Source: Natronolimnobius baerhuensis
GTDB taxonomy: Archaea > Halobacteriota > Halobacteria > Halobacteriales > Natrialbaceae
Reading direction: 5' to 3'
Assembly (NCBI RefSeq): GCF_002177135.1
Contig: NZ_MWPH01000003.1
Location: 682,001-746,000, forward strand
DNA length: 64,000 bases
Positions 13,849 through 25,861 of the stretch are shown here, piece by piece (positions within the stretch are counted from its first letter, which is position 1; each line of letters opens with the position of its first letter). A program made the position numbers and the translations under genes. The notes under the pieces are model-generated. The model was not told the origin of the DNA. It saw only the letters and a program-made list of their open reading frames with translations, and made no database searches.

Positions 13849-13930
13849 GCACGCGGCGAGTCGGGCGACGACAACCGATCACTGACCGGTGACCGCTGAC
13901 TTTTTGCGAGTGGACTGAGCGCCAGTGTGT

Positions 13931-15217
13931 ATGACACTCGATCCGGTTCACTTCGACGGCATTGCCCAACTCGCGGGACGGATCGACCACGGTGCCGACG
14001 CGAGTGATCGCCGCGCGTTCGCTAAGACCGTCTGGGAGCAGTTTCTCGACCCGCTCGTCGCTCGAGATGGGCGGACAATCGTCGACCCCATCGGCGAGCA
14101 GTCGCTCCGATTAGTCGACTGTGAGGACGTGGCGCTGCGAGATCGGGAGTTTCCGACCGAACACGGCCTCGACGCGGGAACGATCAACCCGACGACGTTC
14201 AAAAATGGGCTGGTCATCGACATCGCACAGGCAGCGATGAGCGCGACTCCCTCGAATCTCGACTTGCATCGCTCGAGAACCGTCGTCGCGACGGTTCACT
14301 CGAACGACGAGACGATGACCGTCGACGAAACTTGGGGAAAGTTCGACGAGGGGTTCAGTCGCAGCCGCGCCGTGAAAATCCCGCCGCTGCCGCGCTTTGC
14401 AGAGGGCGTCGTCCACGCGCTCGCACTCTATCTCGCCGAGAGCACGCACGCTCGAGATCACGCCGACGACGTCGAGGATCTGCTCGTCCTTGATGGGCCA
14501 CTGTACCCGCGCGGCCTGCTTCGCTGGGCCGACCAGCACCCCGACCTCGCGGACTTCCTGATCGAGGATCCGCGGCCAACGACCGTGCTCGAGAACTACG
14601 TGCGACTGGTCGAGGAGTTCGTCGACCGCGAGGTGCCGCTGTTTGGGTTCGTGAAAAATCCAGCGACGGGCGTCATTACACGCACGCTCAAACAGAAGCG
14701 CAAGGCCGAACTCAGCGTTCCCTGGGCCAACGACGCGGCGCTCTTTACGCGCCTGCTCGAGCGCGGCGAGTACGTCGACGACGTCGAGGGGAAACGCTGG
14801 GAACGGGACACGTCGGCGCTTACCTACACGAACTGGTTCCGCTCTCGCGGCGGCGTCGACGGGGTATTGTCTCAAAACGGTGATGCACTCGGCGTCGAAC
14901 GAAAACGCGATCTCGAGGAGTACGAAGTTACCTTCTTCGTGGTCTACGATCCGCGCGATGATCTGTGTTATCGAGTCGAAGCACCCTACGCGTTCACCCG
15001 CGACGAGCAGACACGCGAGGCGCTGACGATGCAGGTGTTACAGGACGTGGCAATCGCCCACGGCCCGCCGACGATCATCGACAAGGCGGACGAACTCGCT
15101 CGCATTCGCAACCCCGAGAAGCGCTCGCTCTGTGAATCGTTCGAAGAACAGTTTGAGACGAGTCAGGACCGCAGTTATGACGACCATCGGTGGGCCGACC
15201 CGGCCGAACAGTACTAG
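13931..15217 (+). CDS. nurA: NurA-domain nuclease
   Basis: Probable 5'-3' nuclease that works with the HerA translocase in DNA end resection. The 428-residue protein begins MTLDPVHFDGIAQLAGRI. The NurA core is suggested by DEQSLRLVDCEDV-like N-terminal acidic residues, VVHALALYLAESTHARDHAD, and above all DLLVLDGPLYPRGLLRWADQ, the conserved aspartate motif with DGPLYP. Further on, VPLFGFVKNPATGVITRTLK and YRVEAPYAFT fit the haloarchaeal form. A HerA-like ATPase is encoded 2.3 kb downstream on the same strand. The assignment rests on motif recognition and that neighbour. The start at 13931 is preferred over the GTG two codons upstream. Confidence 0.78.
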   Translation: MTLDPVHFDGIAQLAGRIDHGADASDRRAFAKTVWEQFLDPLVARDGRTIVDPIGEQSLRLVDCEDVALRDREFPTEHGLDAGTINPTTFKNGLVIDIAQAAMSATPSNLDLHRSRTVVATVHSNDETMTVDETWGKFDEGFSRSRAVKIPPLPRFAEGVVHALALYLAESTHARDHADDVEDLLVLDGPLYPRGLLRWADQHPDLADFLIEDPRPTTVLENYVRLVEEFVDREVPLFGFVKNPATGVITRTLKQKRKAELSVPWANDAALFTRLLERGEYVDDVEGKRWERDTSALTYTNWFRSRGGVDGVLSQNGDALGVERKRDLEEYEVTFFVVYDPRDDLCYRVEAPYAFTRDEQTREALTMQVLQDVAIAHGPPTIIDKADELARIRNPEKRSLCESFEEQFETSQDRSYDDHRWADPAEQY

Positions 15218-17399: not shown

Positions 17400-17552
17400 G
17401 GCGGTCCGTACAAGTGACCGACTGCGCCGGATCGTAGCCGGAGTTTCCGCAGGTAGCAACCGCTTTCGCCCTCAGTGTACCGTTCTAGCCCGGTGAACAC
17501 TCGCCGCGGCTGGAGGGAAACGCGTTTGGGGACTGGGCCGGATGGGACTGAT

Positions 17553-19412
17553 ATGACTGATCTGGGAGACTTCGGCGAGCACGACGCCGACGCAGCGCCC
17601 GAATCCGACTTCTCGAGCGAATCCGACCCGTCAACCACCGATTCGGAGTCGACCACCGACGAGTTCGAGACGACCACAGTCGAACCCCGCGGCGACGACG
17701 TTGGGATCGGTGCCGTCTGTGTCTCTCAGGGACTTCGCGTTGCCGAAGACGGCGACGAGACGACGCTGCGAGCGTACATCACGCGCGGGAACCGCTCGTC
17801 GATCCGAATCGGGAGCTACCTCGTCGCGCCGTATCCCGACGGGGCAGCGAACGCTGCCAGTCCAGCGCGTGCCAGCGGGCACGACGGCGAAACGCTGTTC
17901 TGTCGGATCATCGGCCTCGAGTACGCCCAGCAGTACCACGCCGACGACGCGACGGAGATCCACGCCCGACGCGCGATGCGCACCGAGGGCGTCGAGGAAG
18001 CCGATTACAAGTTCGTCGCCGAACTCGAGCCCGTTGCAATCCTCTATGATGATGATGGCGAACTCAAGCGCCGGATGACCGACCGCGTCCCGAAACCCCA
18101 GACTGTGGTCCAGCAGGCAACCGACAGCGAGCAGATCAAGACGGGGCTGAAGATACCCGAAGACGGCGTCTTCCTGGGTCATCTTTCCGTTGGTGGCGAG
18201 AAAGTGAGAACCGCTGCGTCGCCGCCGACCATCGACTACCGACTCAAAGACGACTACGATTCGGGCGACCCGCTCGTCTTTCGCCACTCTCTGATCGCCG
18301 GCGGGACGGGATCGGGGAAGACCCACGGTGCGAAGAACATTCTGCGCCAGTATCTCGCTGAGGAGCGGACGTACCCGATGGAAGACGGCCGCTCCGTCCA
18401 GCCGGCGGTCGTCCAGTTCGACCCACAGGACGAGTACGCCCAGATGCACGACGACAACCCCGATCTGGACGGCGAGTTCGCACGCCGCCTCGAGCGCGAG
18501 GAGGTCGCCTACGGCGGCATCGACGACACGACGGCCTTTATCCCGAAAGTCGGCTCGGCCTCGTACGCGGCGGGCCACCACCGCGCGGAGCAAGTCGAGT
18601 TCACAATTCCGTTTGCGATGGTTCACGAGAACCCGTGGCTGGTCGCCGGCAGCGGGTTGAACGACAACCAGTACGGCGCGCTCGTGAGCGTCCTCCTGCC
18701 GCGATTCCGCAAGCAGTACGGCGGGGACGCAACCTACGACGAGTTCACGACCTTCCTCGACGACCCCGCACTGCGCGAGGAGTTAGACGAGTCTGGGCGC
18801 GTCCACGAGGCAACGTTCGACGCCGTCCGGCGGCGCGTGCTCGGCTTCGGACACGTCTTCGACCAGGACGCGCGCCCGATCACCGACCTGATTCACGACT
18901 TCGTGCGTCCCGGCGGGCTTTCGGTCGTGCCGACCTACCACATCAACGACACGCGGGCGGCCGAAACCGTCGTTCTCGCGCTCTCCTCGCTGCTGATCGA
19001 TCAGAAACTGTCGAACGATCCCCGCTATGACCGGATCAAGGAAACGCCGCTCGTACTCGGGATGGACGAGGCCCACAACTTCCTCACCGACGCCGACAGC
19101 GTCCAGGCGGGCAAGGTGATCAAAAAGTTCACCGAAGCCGCCAAACAGGGCCGCAAGGAACGACTCGGACTGTTCCTCATCACGCAGGACCCCCAGGACA
19201 TCGACGACGCGGTCTTCAAGCAGATTAATACGACCGTCGTCCTGAATTTGGGTGACGAAGACGCCATCAAGAGCGTGAATATTCCCAGTAACCTCGAGTC
19301 CAAAGTCCCCTACATGGAAAAAGGCCAGATGGTCGTCTACTCGCCCGATAACTCCGAACCCGTGGAACTGATCGGCCTGCCGAAGTGTCTGACCCGACAC
19401 GGCCGAGACTGA
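17553..19412 (+). CDS. herA: HerA-like hexameric DNA translocase/ATPase
   Basis: FtsK/HerA-superfamily ATPase that moves along DNA and activates NurA. From ATG 17553 it has 619 residues. An acidic low-complexity N-terminus (1-45) precedes a HAS-barrel region (GAVCVSQGLRVAEDGDETTL; GRNRSSIRIGSYL-like strands). Walker A is SLIAGGTGSGKTHGAKNILR near residue 250. QFDPQDEYAQM follows; Walker B is LVLGMDEAHNF near 510; AAKQGRKERLGLFLITQDPQ carries the sensor and arginine-finger region. NLGDEDAIKSVNIPS is typical of HerA. Length is normal for the haloarchaeal form. nurA lies upstream on the same strand, separated by three genes. Confidence 0.87.
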   Translation: MTDLGDFGEHDADAAPESDFSSESDPSTTDSESTTDEFETTTVEPRGDDVGIGAVCVSQGLRVAEDGDETTLRAYITRGNRSSIRIGSYLVAPYPDGAANAASPARASGHDGETLFCRIIGLEYAQQYHADDATEIHARRAMRTEGVEEADYKFVAELEPVAILYDDDGELKRRMTDRVPKPQTVVQQATDSEQIKTGLKIPEDGVFLGHLSVGGEKVRTAASPPTIDYRLKDDYDSGDPLVFRHSLIAGGTGSGKTHGAKNILRQYLAEERTYPMEDGRSVQPAVVQFDPQDEYAQMHDDNPDLDGEFARRLEREEVAYGGIDDTTAFIPKVGSASYAAGHHRAEQVEFTIPFAMVHENPWLVAGSGLNDNQYGALVSVLLPRFRKQYGGDATYDEFTTFLDDPALREELDESGRVHEATFDAVRRRVLGFGHVFDQDARPITDLIHDFVRPGGLSVVPTYHINDTRAAETVVLALSSLLIDQKLSNDPRYDRIKETPLVLGMDEAHNFLTDADSVQAGKVIKKFTEAAKQGRKERLGLFLITQDPQDIDDAVFKQINTTVVLNLGDEDAIKSVNIPSNLESKVPYMEKGQMVVYSPDNSEPVELIGLPKCLTRHGRD

Positions 19413-19442: not shown

Positions 19443-19844
19443 TTACTCGCCATAGCCCATCGTCGACAGCGTCGCGTTTTCGGCCTGTCGGGTATCTTGG
19501 CGACTGAACTGGACGACGACGGGGACGTTCGATTCGACCACGATGGCATAGTCTCGCCCGAGCGGCGGCGCGTACGGGTCGATCAGGTCGTTGATCCGCA
19601 TGTGACGCACCCGTTCTGCGGCGACCGTCAGCGGGTACGGCCCCGCCTCGTGGCCGTCGGCGTACGAGAGCGTGACCTCGAGCGTGGCCATCTCTGAACC
19701 GGTGTTGAGCACGCAGAGTTTGTCGTGGCTGACCATCTCGGGTTCGGGGCCGGTGCTGTCGACGGGGACGTGGCCGCCGGGGATCACCCAGCGGGTCTCG
19801 CCGATTGGCTCCTCGTCATCGCCATCTCCCTCGGCGGCAGTCAT
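19443..19844 (-). CDS. Sensory-rhodopsin-transducer (ASRT) family protein, copy 2
   Basis: A 133-residue beta-sandwich protein of the Anabaena sensory rhodopsin transducer superfamily, a predicted small-molecule (sugar-like) binding fold. Diagnostic strings are TRWVIPGGHVPVDSTGPEPE, LCVLNTGSEMATLEVTLSYA, RVRHMRINDLIDP and SRQDTRQAENATLSTMGYGE. Its ATG (19844) overlaps the TGA of the upstream oxidase gene by four bases, so the two are translationally coupled. It is paralogous to the protein at 21103-21486. No rhodopsin gene lies in the window, so phototransduction is unlikely. It starts with a short acidic stretch absent in the other copy. Confidence 0.8.
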   Translation of the reverse strand: MTAAEGDGDDEEPIGETRWVIPGGHVPVDSTGPEPEMVSHDKLCVLNTGSEMATLEVTLSYADGHEAGPYPLTVAAERVRHMRINDLIDPYAPPLGRDYAIVVESNVPVVVQFSRQDTRQAENATLSTMGYGE

Positions 19845-21100
19845 GTCGTGACCACCTCGTCGCTCGAGCCGTCCTCGAGCAGGGCCTCGAGGTAGTCGGT
19901 CATGAACACGCCCTCGGGGTCGAGGTCGCGTCGAATCTCCTGGAAGTGCTCCCATTCGGGGTACAGCTCTTCCAACTCTGCGGCACGGAGCGTGTGCTTT
20001 TTGCCCCAGTGGGGGCGGCCATCGTACTCCCGAAAGAGCGGTTCCATATCGGTGAAGTAGGGCCAGTGCTCGAGTTCGGCGCTCTGGATGCACGAAATCG
20101 ACATCGCCTCGCGGTCGTACTCCGTCGAGAGCATGGCGTCGTCGGCGGCGATGGTGCGGACGAGCATGCGCCAGCCGACGTCTTTGCGCCAGTTCTCGCG
20201 AACCCGCTCTCTGGCTTTCTCGAAGCACTCGAGGCCGTCCTCGCGGGCGACGGCGTACTCCATCTCGTCGAACGCGCGGCCGATGTCGTCGTGTGCCGGA
20301 ATCGCCTCCTGCCACCAGCCGGTCTGATTCTTGACGAGCGTCGCGTACTCGAGGTCGGCGTGGTCGGTGCCGCCGCCGGGGCCGTTGAGCAGGCGGAGTT
20401 TGACCTCGTCCGAGCGGGGATACCAGTAGAAATCGAAGTTGCGATTCTCCTCGATCAGCGTCGGGATGTGATCCTTGCACTCGCGCCAGTTCGTACAGTA
20501 CTCGCGGCGCTGGACCTTGTAGGTGTCTTGCAGGTCGAGTTCGATTTCGGTGAAGATCCCGAGCGTGCCGAGCGAGACTTTGGCAGCCCGCAGGAGGTCC
20601 GGGTCGTCCTCGGCGTTAAACTCTCGAATCTCGCCGGTTCCGGTGACCAGCCGCCCGCCGGTGAGCACACTCGAGAGGTTCCCGAACTCCGGGCCGGTGC
20701 CGTGGGTGCCCGTGCCGAACGCGCCCGCGACGGTCTGCATCGACACGTCGCCGAGATTCGGGAAGGCGAGTCCGCGGGTGTGAAGCTCCGTGCCGGCCTC
20801 CTCGAGCGTCGTGCCCGCGTACAGGGTCGCCGTTCCCGCGTCGGCGTCGTGATCGATGAGTCCCGTCATATTCGCGAGCGAGACGATTACACCATCTGTT
20901 TCGACGACTGGCGTCCACGAGTGGCCCGCGCCGGCGACGCGGACGGTTCGTCCCTCCTCGGCGCAGCGACGGACGATATCCTGCAGTTCGGACTCGGTTT
21001 CGGGCTCGAGGATCTCGTCGGGATCACAACTGATGCTCCCGGACCAGTTGGCCCAGCCCGCCTCCTCGTGGTCGTCTTCGTCCAGAATGTCCTGGGCCAC
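19841..21100 (-). CDS. FAD-linked aldonolactone oxidase-like protein (ALO/GULO family)
   Basis: A 419-residue FAD-binding oxidoreductase of the vanillyl-alcohol-oxidase superfamily, aldonolactone oxidase branch. The PCMH FAD domain has RTVRVAGAGHSWTPVVETDG with H60, the histidine that in some relatives carries covalent FAD, then NLGDVSMQTVAGAFGTGTHG. The C-terminal ALO domain has the signature GRPHWGKKHTL followed by ELYPEWEHFQEIRRDLDPEG and FMTDYL. It probably oxidises a sugar lactone or polyol with oxygen or another acceptor. The gene is sandwiched in an operon between two ASRT genes, overlapping the downstream one and separated by 2 bp from the upstream one. Substrate unknown. Confidence 0.82.
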   Translation of the reverse strand: MAQDILDEDDHEEAGWANWSGSISCDPDEILEPETESELQDIVRRCAEEGRTVRVAGAGHSWTPVVETDGVIVSLANMTGLIDHDADAGTATLYAGTTLEEAGTELHTRGLAFPNLGDVSMQTVAGAFGTGTHGTGPEFGNLSSVLTGGRLVTGTGEIREFNAEDDPDLLRAAKVSLGTLGIFTEIELDLQDTYKVQRREYCTNWRECKDHIPTLIEENRNFDFYWYPRSDEVKLRLLNGPGGGTDHADLEYATLVKNQTGWWQEAIPAHDDIGRAFDEMEYAVAREDGLECFEKARERVRENWRKDVGWRMLVRTIAADDAMLSTEYDREAMSISCIQSAELEHWPYFTDMEPLFREYDGRPHWGKKHTLRAAELEELYPEWEHFQEIRRDLDPEGVFMTDYLEALLEDGSSDEVVTT

Positions 21101-21102
21101 GA

Positions 21103-21486
21103 CTACTCACCCGATTCCGAGGCCGCCGGATATGCCATCGTCGAGAGCAGGGCGTTTTCGGCCTGGCGAGAATCCAATCGCGTGTGCTGGCAGACGACGG
21201 GGACAGTGGACTCGAGAACGCTCGCGAAGGGCTCACCCGTCGGGATCTCCTCGGGGTCGTCGAACTCGTTGAACCGGAAGTGGCGAGTTCGCTGTGGCGG
21301 GACGGTCTTCTCGTAGGGACCGACCGGATCTTGATCTGGGAAGTAGATCGTGATCTCGAGGGTTGCTTTCTCGTCGGTCGTGTTGAGCACGCAGATCGTC
21401 TCGTGGCTGGTCATCTCCGGCTCCGGGCCGGTGCTTTCCTCGGGGATGTACCCCTCCGGAATCGCCCACGTCTGTTTGCCGGTCAT
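21103..21486 (-). CDS. Sensory-rhodopsin-transducer (ASRT) family protein, copy 1
   Basis: A 127-residue ASRT-fold protein, first gene of a three-gene operon. It begins MTGKQTWAIPEGYIPEESTG and continues ICVLNTTDEKATLEITIYFP, RTRHFRFNEFDDPEEIPTGE, and CQHTRLDSRQAENALLSTMA. Alignment by eye with the product of 19443-19844 shows the same order of strands and the same RQAENA.LSTM.Y ending. No signal peptide is present, so it is cytoplasmic. The superfamily has been proposed to bind carbohydrates or similar ligands and is often linked to sugar metabolism, which fits the lactone oxidase next door. The stop lies 2 bp before the oxidase start. Confidence 0.85.
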   Translation of the reverse strand: MTGKQTWAIPEGYIPEESTGPEPEMTSHETICVLNTTDEKATLEITIYFPDQDPVGPYEKTVPPQRTRHFRFNEFDDPEEIPTGEPFASVLESTVPVVCQHTRLDSRQAENALLSTMAYPAASESGE

Positions 21487-22530: not shown

Positions 22531-23490
22531 TTACTCGAGCGCCGGCAACACGTCCTCACCGAACGCCTCGAGAAAGTCCGTCTGATTCGTCGGCACGTTG
22601 TGGATGAAGACACGCTCTACGTCGAGAGAAGCATCGTGCTCGAGCCACTCGATGTGGTCCTCGAGGGCGGCCGAACAACGAACGTTTTCGGCGACCTGCT
22701 CCTCGTCGACGGTTTCGGATAGCTCGTCGAACTGCTCGGGCGTTCGCAGTTCCTGGGTGACCGGGCCGGGCACGCAGTTGGTGTGCCACTGCTCGTAGGC
22801 ACCCTCGAGGGCGGCCTCATCGCTGTCGGCGTAGGCGTGTTGGGCTTTGAGAAAGACCGGTTTCTCGGGAGCGTTTTCTCGGAAGGCCTCGACCCGGGCG
22901 GCGTCGGCCTCGTGGTCCGGCGTGGCGATGGTGATCATGCCGTCGGCCCACTCGGCGAGCCACGCGGCGGTTTCCTCGGAGAGCGCCGCGCCGATCAGCG
23001 GCGGCGCGGTGTCAGGCCGGGAGTACAGTTGGGCCTGTTCGACGTCGATCCGCCCGTGATGGGTCACCTCTTCGCCGTCCCAGAGTCGCCCCATCACGTC
23101 GGCACACTCCTCGAGTCGAGCATTGCGTTCGCGTTTAACCGGCCAGTCGGTGCCGGTAATCCCCTCGTTCAGCAGTTGGCCGCTGCCGACAGCCAGCCAG
23201 AAGCGCTCGGGGTACATCTCCCGCAGCGTCGCCGCGCCCTGGGCGATGATTGCGGGGTGGTAGCGATAGCCCGGCGCGTTGACTGTCCCGAACGTGAGGT
23301 CGGTCGCCTCGAGCGCGGAGCCGAGCCACGACCAGACGAGTCCCGACTCGCCTTGCCGTTCGCTCCAGGGGTGGAAGTGATCGGAGGCGAGGGCGTGCTC
23401 GAACCCGACCTCGTCGGCGAGTTCGGCGTACTCGAGGGCCGCACTCGGGGCGAACTGTTCGTGGGAGACGTGATAGCCGAGGTCGGTCAC
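22531..23490 (-). CDS. F420-dependent LLM-class oxidoreductase
   Basis: A 319-residue TIM-barrel enzyme of the luciferase-like group that uses coenzyme F420 (or FMN). It begins MTDLGYHVSHEQFAPSAALE from a GTG start, and has ALASDHFHPWSERQGESGLV, TFGTVNAPGYRYHPAIIAQG, YPERFWLAVGSGQLLNEGIT and GWGxxE-like ADVMGRLWDGEEVTHHG. This matches the TIGR03557/TIGR03885 group related to F420-dependent glucose-6-phosphate dehydrogenase. F420 synthesis genes occur at the start of this window. It lies 136 bp downstream of a GH15 gene on the same strand, so sugar oxidation is an attractive but unproven role. Confidence 0.85.
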   Translation of the reverse strand: MTDLGYHVSHEQFAPSAALEYAELADEVGFEHALASDHFHPWSERQGESGLVWSWLGSALEATDLTFGTVNAPGYRYHPAIIAQGAATLREMYPERFWLAVGSGQLLNEGITGTDWPVKRERNARLEECADVMGRLWDGEEVTHHGRIDVEQAQLYSRPDTAPPLIGAALSEETAAWLAEWADGMITIATPDHEADAARVEAFRENAPEKPVFLKAQHAYADSDEAALEGAYEQWHTNCVPGPVTQELRTPEQFDELSETVDEEQVAENVRCSAALEDHIEWLEHDASLDVERVFIHNVPTNQTDFLEAFGEDVLPALE

Positions 23491-23626: not shown

Positions 23627-25669
23627 CTACTCGTCTGGCCCCTCCGAATCCCGGCCGTGCTGGGTGAAAAGCGGTGCCGCAGCGCCGCCAGCGAGTTCCT
23701 CGGGCGGCAACTCGTCGGCGTCGTCCGCGCTCGCGAGGTAGATCGCGCTGTTGAGCAGGCCGATGTGGCTGAAAGCCTGCGGGAAATTCCCCAGCAGGGT
23801 GCCGTCTTCGGCGTGGATCATCTCCGAAAGGAGTCCCAGCGGAGAGGCGTACTCGAGCAGGTTATCGAAGATTTCGGTCGCTTCCTCGATGCGATTCGAG
23901 AGCACGAGCGTGTCGACGAGCCAGCACGAACAGAGCACGAAGCCGCCGGATTCGGTCGGTCGTGCGGGGCTGTCGGTAAAGCGGAACACGAGGCCATCGT
24001 CGGTTGCAGCCTCCTCGAGAATCGTATCGATGGTGTTCTGGACGCGCTCGTCGTCGGAGGGCAGGAAGTCGTAGAGTGGGATGAGGAGAGCCGTCGCATC
24101 GAGTGCGTCCTCGGCACCGAAAAACTGCATGAAACTTCCTTTCTCCTCGTTGTAGCCGCGCTCTTCGATTGCCTCCCTGATGGCTTCGCGTTCGCGGTCC
24201 CATTTTTTAAATGGGCCGTCGTAGTCGTACTCACCGCCCATCCTGATCGCCCGGTCGAGGGCAACCCAACACAACAGTTTCGAGTGGACGAAGTGCTCCT
24301 CGAGGTCGCGAAACTCCCAGATACCTTTGCCGCGCTCCTCCCAGTGGTCGCAGACGTGATTCGCCAGGGCGCGAACCGATTCCCAGTCGTAGTCGGAGAG
24401 GCCGTCCTGGTAGCGGATCGTTTCGTAGATGCCCTGTACGACCGTGCCGTACATGTCGAGTTGCACCTGATCCGCCGCGGCGTTGCCGATTCTGACCGGC
24501 TGGGAGTCTCGATAGCCCGAGAGATGCTCGAGGTGTTCTTCCTCGAGGTCGGTTTCGCCGTGAAGGCCGTACAGCGGGCGGATGTCCTCGGGGGATTCGT
24601 GGCCGATCTCTCGGAACCACTCGAAGTACTCGTGGGCTTCTGCGGATTGGCCGACGTTGTGGAGCGCCTGAATCGTGAACTTCGCGTCGCGAATCCAGTT
24701 ATATCGATAATCCCAGTTGAGTTCCCCGCCGATTTCCTCGGGCAGCGAGGTCGTCGCCGCGGCCGGGATCGACCCCGTTTCGTCGTGAATCAGGAGTTTG
24801 AGCACGAGCGTCGAGCGAACGAGCGCGTCGTGCCAGTCGTCTCTGAGCGAAAAGAGGTCCGAGGCCGACTCCTCGCAGCGCTCGAGCCAGTGTCGCCAGT
24901 ACGAAATCGTCTCCTCGAGACACTGCTCGCAGTCAGGTTCGGGTGTAGTTTCGGGATCGCCGTACTGGAGATGAAACCAGTGTTGATCGCCGTCTTCGAC
25001 GGTCATCGTCCCCGTTGCGACTGTCTCGTCTTCGTCAATCGCAAACTCGAGGTCCGTCTCGGTCCGTAACGAGAGTTGGCCTTGTTCGTCGCTGCGGTGG
25101 CGCTGTTCGTCGGCGGGCCGGTTCTCGTCGGTTACGTCGCCGTTGACGCTGTGGTTGCCCGTCTCGTTCGCCTCGGCGGCGACCACCGTGCCGTCGTCAC
25201 TGCGTTCGAGGTCCGTGGTCGACCGGCCGTAATCGAAGCGTGGTTCGAAGACGATCTCGAGGTCGACCGAGCCTGTATTGCCCTCGACGGCGCGGTAGAT
25301 CGCCTGTTGGAAGCGATCTGCCTCGCTGTCTGTCGCCGTGCTCGAGTCGTCGTCGACCGACTCGTCGTGTGCGTTGTCGCGGCTAACGGGCATGACGTCG
25401 GTTACAGTGACGCTGCCGCCATCCGTTTCGAACGTCGTCTCGAGGACGTTCGTTCGGTCGACGTAGGTCTGCGTCGTCTCGTACTCCTCGGCCGGGCGAA
25501 TCGCGAACCGCCCGCCGTCATCAGCATCGAGTATCGCCGCGAACACGCTTGGCGACTCGAGATGGGGGAAACAACACCAGTCGATTGAGCCGTTGTGCCC
25601 GACGAGCGCACAGCGGTCGTTGTTGCCGATCACTCCGTATGCCTCGAGTGGAAGATAGTCGTCGTCCAT
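23627..25669 (-). CDS. Glycoside hydrolase family 15 protein (glucoamylase/trehalase type)
   Basis: A cytoplasmic (alpha/alpha)6-barrel hydrolase that releases glucose from trehalose or alpha-glucans, 680 aa from ATG 25669. The N-terminal beta domain has MDDDYLPLEAYGVIGNNDRC and GHNGSIDWCCFPHLESPSVF. The catalytic domain has the signature GELNWDYRYNWIRDAKFTIQ, FDALDATALLIPLYDFLP-like strings and TESGGFVLCSCWLVDTLV. Two acidic, Asn/Asp/Glu-rich linkers near residues 90-115 and 165-200 are insertions in loops of the N-terminal domain. There is no signal peptide. Trehalase activity is favoured by the intracellular location, but glucoamylase cannot be excluded. Confidence 0.88.
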   Translation of the reverse strand: MDDDYLPLEAYGVIGNNDRCALVGHNGSIDWCCFPHLESPSVFAAILDADDGGRFAIRPAEEYETTQTYVDRTNVLETTFETDGGSVTVTDVMPVSRDNAHDESVDDDSSTATDSEADRFQQAIYRAVEGNTGSVDLEIVFEPRFDYGRSTTDLERSDDGTVVAAEANETGNHSVNGDVTDENRPADEQRHRSDEQGQLSLRTETDLEFAIDEDETVATGTMTVEDGDQHWFHLQYGDPETTPEPDCEQCLEETISYWRHWLERCEESASDLFSLRDDWHDALVRSTLVLKLLIHDETGSIPAAATTSLPEEIGGELNWDYRYNWIRDAKFTIQALHNVGQSAEAHEYFEWFREIGHESPEDIRPLYGLHGETDLEEEHLEHLSGYRDSQPVRIGNAAADQVQLDMYGTVVQGIYETIRYQDGLSDYDWESVRALANHVCDHWEERGKGIWEFRDLEEHFVHSKLLCWVALDRAIRMGGEYDYDGPFKKWDREREAIREAIEERGYNEEKGSFMQFFGAEDALDATALLIPLYDFLPSDDERVQNTIDTILEEAATDDGLVFRFTDSPARPTESGGFVLCSCWLVDTLVLSNRIEEATEIFDNLLEYASPLGLLSEMIHAEDGTLLGNFPQAFSHIGLLNSAIYLASADDADELPPEELAGGAAAPLFTQHGRDSEGPDE

Positions 25670-25861
25670 GGGAGCAGGGTTGTGTATCGCGTTCGGACAC
25701 TCGCGGCGTGTCCGGTGCGTTCGATACGCGTCGTTCAACGGTTTCCGTCAAAAGAATACGCGGTGCAATAGCCGGAGTGACGTCTTTCGGCGCGGCTCAC
25801 TCACGAGTGTTGACACCGTTGGGCAGACGCTTTTTACGGGTACTGCAGAGAGCACCCATCA

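Follow-up and report, generated by a model that had tools for sequence, protein, structure and literature searches.

In the stretch of DNA analysed here (64,000 nucleotides of a contig of the haloarchaeon Natronolimnobius baerhuensis, hereafter the window), a covalent-FAD oxidase of the ALO/GULO type lies between two genes for ASRT proteins, designated ASRT-A and ASRT-B, in a layout that is conserved far above chance. ASRT-A is dispensable and exchangeable at this locus; ASRT-B constitutes an oxidase-specific clade in which the predicted ligand-contacting histidine has been partly lost. The explanation that we favour, with the considerations for and against it in about equal balance, is that ASRT-B would be a partner reserved for a remodelled, O2-using sugar/polyol oxidase, and ASRT-A a second, optional ligand binder.

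Organization of the locus

The original prediction, that two paralogous ASRT-fold proteins flank an ALO/GULO-type flavoprotein in a tight three-gene unit, was borne out by the domain matches and by the gene boundaries (Table 1), with exactly 2 nt separating ASRT-A from the oxidase gene and exactly 4 nt shared by the oxidase gene and ASRT-B. Both ASRT proteins match the whole of the PF07100 domain (positions 1-118 and 2-119 of 119), with scores of 187.8 bits for ASRT-A and 162.4 bits for ASRT-B against a cut-off of 25. They share 55% identity and are the only ASRT genes in the entire genome. The closeness of ASRT-A to the Anabaena protein (2ii7) was evident using phmmer (E=1.6e-48), and the predicted structure of ASRT-B matches both 2ii7 and 1nc7. 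The oxidase contains FAD_binding_4 (PF01565) and ALO (PF04030) domains and, at 344.5 bits, passes the NCBIfam cut-off (292.25) of TIGR01679, bacterial FAD-linked oxidoreductase.

Table 1. Positions in the window of the three-gene unit and of the genes upstream of it
Feature	Position	Strand	Description
ASRT-A (127 aa)	21103-21486	minus	First gene of the trio; general ASRT type with SHE..C..N pocket signature
ALO/GULO-type covalent-FAD oxidase (419 aa, GTG start)	19841-21100	minus	PF01565 + PF04030, TIGR01679
ASRT-B (133 aa)	19443-19844	minus	Last gene of the trio; oxidase-specific ASRT clade
4-nt start/stop overlap (ATGA), oxidase stop / ASRT-B start	19841-19844	minus	
TIGR03885 LLM-class flavoenzyme (319 aa)	22531-23490	minus	Upstream of the trio, same strand
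GH15 glycoside hydrolase with trehalase-like N-terminal domain	23627-25738	minus	Upstream of the trio

Conservation and translational coupling

Conservation of the trio across haloarchaea, proposed beforehand as a check, was confirmed in a set of 394 halobacterial genomes and extends to Thermoplasmata, Salegentibacter and Sinorhizobium. Of the 394, 17 encode an oxidase closely related to that of the window (E < 1e-170), and in all 17 ASRT-B is the next gene on the same strand. ASRT-A precedes the oxidase in 14 of these; in the other three it lies elsewhere in the genome, one being Natrialba magadii, where the oxidase/ASRT-B pair is carried on plasmid pNMAG01. ASRT genes occur in 42 of the 394 genomes, and every one of the 17 oxidase genomes falls within these 42 (hypergeometric P = 1e-18, a value that ignores shared ancestry). 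The prediction had named two outcomes that would count against it. The first was a trio confined to this genome; the recurrence of the trio in 14 of 394 halobacterial genomes and beyond rejects a single-genome oddity. The second was ASRT genes that do not co-occur with the oxidase elsewhere, and ASRT-B adjoins each of the close oxidases.

The trio was also found in Natronococcus pandeyae (L032) and in a Thermoplasmata MAG (L033). The bacterial trios are those of Salegentibacter salinarum (L044) and of Sinorhizobium meliloti and S. medicae (pSymB), and the oxidase/ASRT-B pair alone is carried on plasmid 3 of Deinococcus deserti. Three genomes from the phylum of Nannocystis likewise possess the pair, though one contig ends too early to exclude an upstream ASRT-A. 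The unit is rare in bacteria: it was present in one of 297 genomes of the Bacteroidota, that of Salegentibacter itself, and no linked oxidase of comparable similarity was found in 385 sampled genomes of Alphaproteobacteria. When 12 ASRT-bearing genomes were reached via an ASRT search, nine gave no hit to the oxidase at E < 1e-20; of the three that did, two contain the trio and the other has distant relatives only. In the loci examined, neither the oxidase without ASRT-B nor ASRT-B without this oxidase was ever encountered.

The 4-nt overlap between the oxidase and ASRT-B is kept in 19 of the 19 archaeal loci examined and in D. deserti, making 20 loci. It is reduced to 1 nt in Salegentibacter, and in S. 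meliloti a gap of 120 nt is found instead. Decayed copies of the unit were seen in two genomes. In one (G167; L112, 6085-6294, minus strand) a single deletion joins approximately codon 43 of the oxidase to approximately codon 100 of ASRT-B, so that most of both genes is gone, and an intact ASRT-A directly precedes the relic; in the other (G273) the unit has decayed. The kept overlap suggests stoichiometry rather than regulation.

A different reading of the same data is that the operon has simply been co-transferred and that its genes work independently of each other within a single sugar-oxidation pathway, no complex being formed. Its spread over phyla and plasmids (N. magadii pNMAG01, pSymB, D. 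deserti plasmid 3) and the exchangeability of ASRT-A would fit such a history, and tight operons and co-transfer can occur without physical contact, a point that counts against a partnership of ASRT-B with the oxidase. We nevertheless regard independent action as unlikely, given that the two genes were never apart in the loci examined and that an overlap kept in 20 loci goes beyond what simple linkage needs.

Two kinds of ASRT protein

In a tree of 88 ASRT proteins (120 alignment columns) ASRT-B is a single clade spanning haloarchaea, Thermoplasmata, Bacteroidota, Alphaproteobacteria and Deinococcota (bootstrap 100, SH-aLRT 98), and it remained single after the three genomes of the Nannocystis phylum were added (support 92/99). 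ASRT-A forms no clade; it groups among local solo ASRTs, which in the present case are the solo haloarchaeal ones. The fine branching is unsure because the alignment is short and some of the ASRT-B branches are long. This topology rejects two equivalent paralogues that arose by local duplication. Of the original prediction of paired ASRTs, the coupling of both to the oxidase stands and their equivalence does not, ASRT-B being oxidase-specific and ASRT-A a general ASRT.

The family's pocket signature, SHEshChhN, reads SHETICVLN in ASRT-A and SHDKLCVLN in ASRT-B, with a Glu to Asp change in the latter. De Souza et al. proposed the histidine as a ligand contact (PMC2739507). Both ASRT proteins of the window keep the predicted ligand-contacting His and Cys. 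Across the alignment the His is present in 63/63 ASRT-A and solo proteins and in only 14 of the 25 ASRT-B rows scored, which weakens the case for a ligand role of ASRT-B. A further position is Thr in 63/63 of the A and solo proteins and Val in 22 of 23 ASRT-B proteins, and Leu to Gln is among the other switches; compared with Anabaena ASRT, the changes in ASRT-B are Thr to Val at 70, His to Phe/Trp at 104 and Leu to Gln at 107.

Residues matching the DNA contacts R109, Q110 and N113 of Anabaena ASRT, a protein reported to bind and loop DNA and to alter reporter expression (PMC8660804), are present in both ASRT proteins of the window (RQAEN). The two ASRT proteins might regulate the operon by binding DNA, a role claimed for the Anabaena protein, and the oxidase would then simply be the enzyme under their control. 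This seems to us quite improbable: the reported KD of about 10 uM is weak and accompanied by little sequence preference (PMC8660804), and the contact residues are less well kept in ASRT-B (R 18/23, Q 18/23, N 16/23) than in other ASRTs (61, 60 and 57 of 63), yet ASRT-B is the copy most tied to the oxidase. The kept translational overlap, with its suggestion of stoichiometry, also speaks against regulation of this kind.

Active site of the oxidase

The motifs recognized in the oxidase are His60, Gly117-Asp118, Trp310-Arg311-x-Leu313-x-Arg315 and Lys367. No aligned sequence departs from the catalytic Arg315 and Lys367, and the flavin-linking His60 is kept. A structure model (pLDDT 81) gave galactonolactone dehydrogenase (GALDH) and alditol oxidase (AldO) as its best matches; two rows from plasmid records were left out of the structure modelling. 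The fold is common to AldO (2vfr, 2vft) and the related 8ot8 (TM about 0.82-0.85), and AldO also has the covalent-FAD His and the active-site Arg and Lys, but its identity to the oxidase is only about 27%. Ala105-Ser106 of AldO is replaced by Gly-Asp in the oxidase, and Leu313 stands at the position of Glu320 (AldO numbering), the substrate-binding Glu of AldO.

GALDH, GULO and ALO (PMC11099136) have in common with the oxidase the fold and the catalytic Arg-Lys pair, and GULO and ALO also the Gly that permits reaction with O2; the oxidase differs in having lost the equivalent of Glu386, and operon partners are not known for those enzymes. In GALDH the pair is Arg388/Lys456, Glu386 hydrogen-bonds the substrate, and position 113 distinguishes dehydrogenases, with Ala, from O2-using oxidases, with Gly (PMC11099136). 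Gly117 occupies the position of this Ala113. At the GALDH Glu386/AldO Glu320 position the Glu is absent and Leu313 is found in the window oxidase. The motif W-R-x-L-x-R is present in 26/26 ASRT-linked oxidases, including those of the three Nannocystis-phylum genomes, which had come to light through an ASRT search at a time when the motif was already known. The 26 linked oxidases form one clade (SH-aLRT 100). The Glu of E-x-R is kept in 29 of 30 unlinked relatives ([FY]-P-x-E-x-R or close), the exception being a distant, gapped sequence, and no ASRT was present at 32 unlinked oxidase loci tested.

Loss of the substrate-binding Glu in the linked clade makes the label 'lactone oxidase' doubtful. 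An alternative in which the enzyme is simply what its annotation says, a D-arabinono-1,4-lactone oxidase of the usual aldonolactone type, and its lactone is bound by the ASRT proteins would agree with the ALO domain, with membership of TIGR01679, with the kept catalytic Arg/Lys and Gly, and with the GenBank annotation of its homologues. We attach little probability to this reading, since the Glu that hydrogen-bonds the lactone in GALDH is absent from every linked oxidase and kept in nearly all of the relatives, and since the score against TIGR01678 (sugar 1,4-lactone oxidase), 196 bits, is under the cut-off of 396.8. The lactone substrates of the original prediction have thus lost ground: aldono- or uronolactones are doubtful as substrates, and a substrate changed from that of the relatives is the best inference from the lost Glu.

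Proposed function

In the partnership that we favour, the conserved core would be the oxidase/ASRT-B pair, made in step by means of the 4-nt translational overlap. Because the oxidase has kept the catalytic Arg and Lys, the His that links the flavin and the Gly typical of oxidases, it most likely abstracts a hydride from a carbinol group of some small substrate derived from a sugar, with H2O2 as a product; the Glu to Leu replacement would imply a substrate unlike either aldonolactones or simple alditols. The most likely role of ASRT-B is in a mixed assembly with the oxidase, which it would tune or complete. ASRT-A, with its intact predicted pocket, would be an ordinary ASRT serving as an optional metabolite sensor, perhaps in a mixed tetramer with ASRT-B.

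A stronger proposal, to which we are more inclined to object than to assent, is that ASRT-B serves a new oxidase subfamily with a rebuilt active site (Glu to Leu) as allosteric partner or obligate subunit, the whole forming a two-component, possibly three-component, ligand-gated oxidase in archaea and bacteria. Were it true, the ASRT family would gain an enzyme-regulating role instead of one in rhodopsin signalling. The family has been known for more than 20 years, and its members have been proposed as rhodopsin transducer, DNA binder and sugar sensor; an enzyme to which an ASRT is strictly coupled and whose active site has visibly changed would offer a clean test case for the enzyme-partner idea. 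The widely copied annotation D-arabinono-1,4-lactone oxidase would also be corrected for the linked oxidase clade.

Relation to earlier work

The ASRT/ASRAH superfamily was predicted to consist of proteins that sense sugars inside the cell and act on the enzymes encoded in the same operon, in a survey that included Natrialba magadii (De Souza, Iyer, Aravind 2009; PMC2739507). The operons reported there, which involve the same protein family as the ASRTs of the window, combine ASRT genes with an FAD oxidoreductase, with amylases (Sinorhizobium) and with an enzyme of the pyruvate decarboxylase/oxidase type. The original prediction knew of no described pathway with the present layout, which is half right: operons of ASRT with FAD oxidoreductase are on record in PMC2739507, whose main text is without two ASRTs around one oxidase, a layout that may be drawn in its figure or supplement. 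That main text is also without the oxidase-bound ASRT-B clade, the overlap, the TIGR03885 link and the active-site change. What the present analysis adds to the text of PMC2739507 is the division into ASRT-A and an oxidase-bound ASRT-B, the motif that marks the active site, the conservation of the overlap and the association with TIGR03885.

The Anabaena sensory rhodopsin transducer (2ii7) and TM1070 (1nc7) are relatives of both ASRTs in sequence and fold, but the present locus differs from the Anabaena system in having no rhodopsin. A genome search revealed no rhodopsin gene in the operon or nearby, in agreement with the earlier statement that none is here; the single rhodopsin gene of the genome lies on another contig (C2, 671233-671910). 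An ASRT pair serving a rhodopsin light-sensing pathway, as in Anabaena, would have that one gene in its favour. We find this scarcely credible and rejected rhodopsin signalling, since the gene is on a different contig, since the ASRT-rhodopsin linkage is specific to Anabaena (PMC3198991), and since the genes adjoining the trio specify carbohydrate and flavin enzymes.

Neighbouring genes

The three-gene unit of the original prediction is tight, but it appears too narrowly drawn, for the genes for the LLM flavoenzyme and the GH15 enzyme upstream probably also belong to the functional unit. In the window the TIGR03885 gene and the trio are likely to be separate transcription units, and between them lies a small gene whose sequence suggests a cold-shock-like protein. 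In one other genome (G020; L127, 8645-9097, minus strand) a universal stress protein is encoded at that place, between ASRT-A and TIGR03885.

The flavoenzyme scores 434.5 bits against the TIGR03885 cut-off of 398.7. Genes of this type, of at least 44% identity, were found near ASRT in 14 other loci, including those of Sinorhizobium, Salegentibacter, Deinococcus, Nannocystis and a Thermoplasmata MAG. No description of this neighbour link was found in the literature, nor any papers on TIGR03885 or PF07100. The family is described by NCBIfam as FMN-dependent and as close to F420-dependent glucose-6-phosphate dehydrogenases.

The GH15 gene product matches PF00723 (206 bits) and PF19291 (TREH_N; 64.9 bits), and GH15 genes are near ASRT in nine other loci. 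The S. meliloti genes run from a TPP enzyme through ASRT-A, oxidase and ASRT-B to a GH13 of the TreS type and TIGR03885; in Salegentibacter an LLM flavoenzyme and a TreS-like gene are followed by the trio. The TreS-type gene next to the S. meliloti trio is presumably smb20099, judging from the TreS-type match and the gene numbering. S. meliloti treS is smb20099 (PMC4960864); for SMb20095-98 and SMb20100 no literature was found. The setting might be alpha-glucoside/trehalose metabolism, with a GH15 or TreS-like enzyme and the TIGR03885 flavoenzyme. Since the GH15 protein of the window is well below the curated cut-offs of the archaeal trehalases TreH1/TreH2, and the bacterial TreS-like neighbours are below that of TreS, trehalose is a lead and not a result.

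Some further arrangements were observed around ASRT genes. In about eleven haloarchaeal loci (including L107, L113, L117, L120, L127, L129 and L131) ASRT-B is followed immediately by a convergent gene for an AEC-type permease (PF03547), an arrangement that the window does not have. In Nannocystis (L042, L046, L047, L050) a solo ASRT is followed by a ribokinase-type gene, with a TIGR03885-like gene 3.4 kb further on. In one haloarchaeal genus (L114, 6761-7717, plus strand; L118; L111) a solo ASRT overlaps a gene of the OMP decarboxylase/HUMPS fold by 4 nt. Elsewhere in the window, genes on the plus strand specify a NurA-domain protein (13925-15217) and a HerA-like ATPase (17475-19412); they are about 2.3 kb apart and enclose genes for a DUF7344 protein and a cohesin-domain protein.
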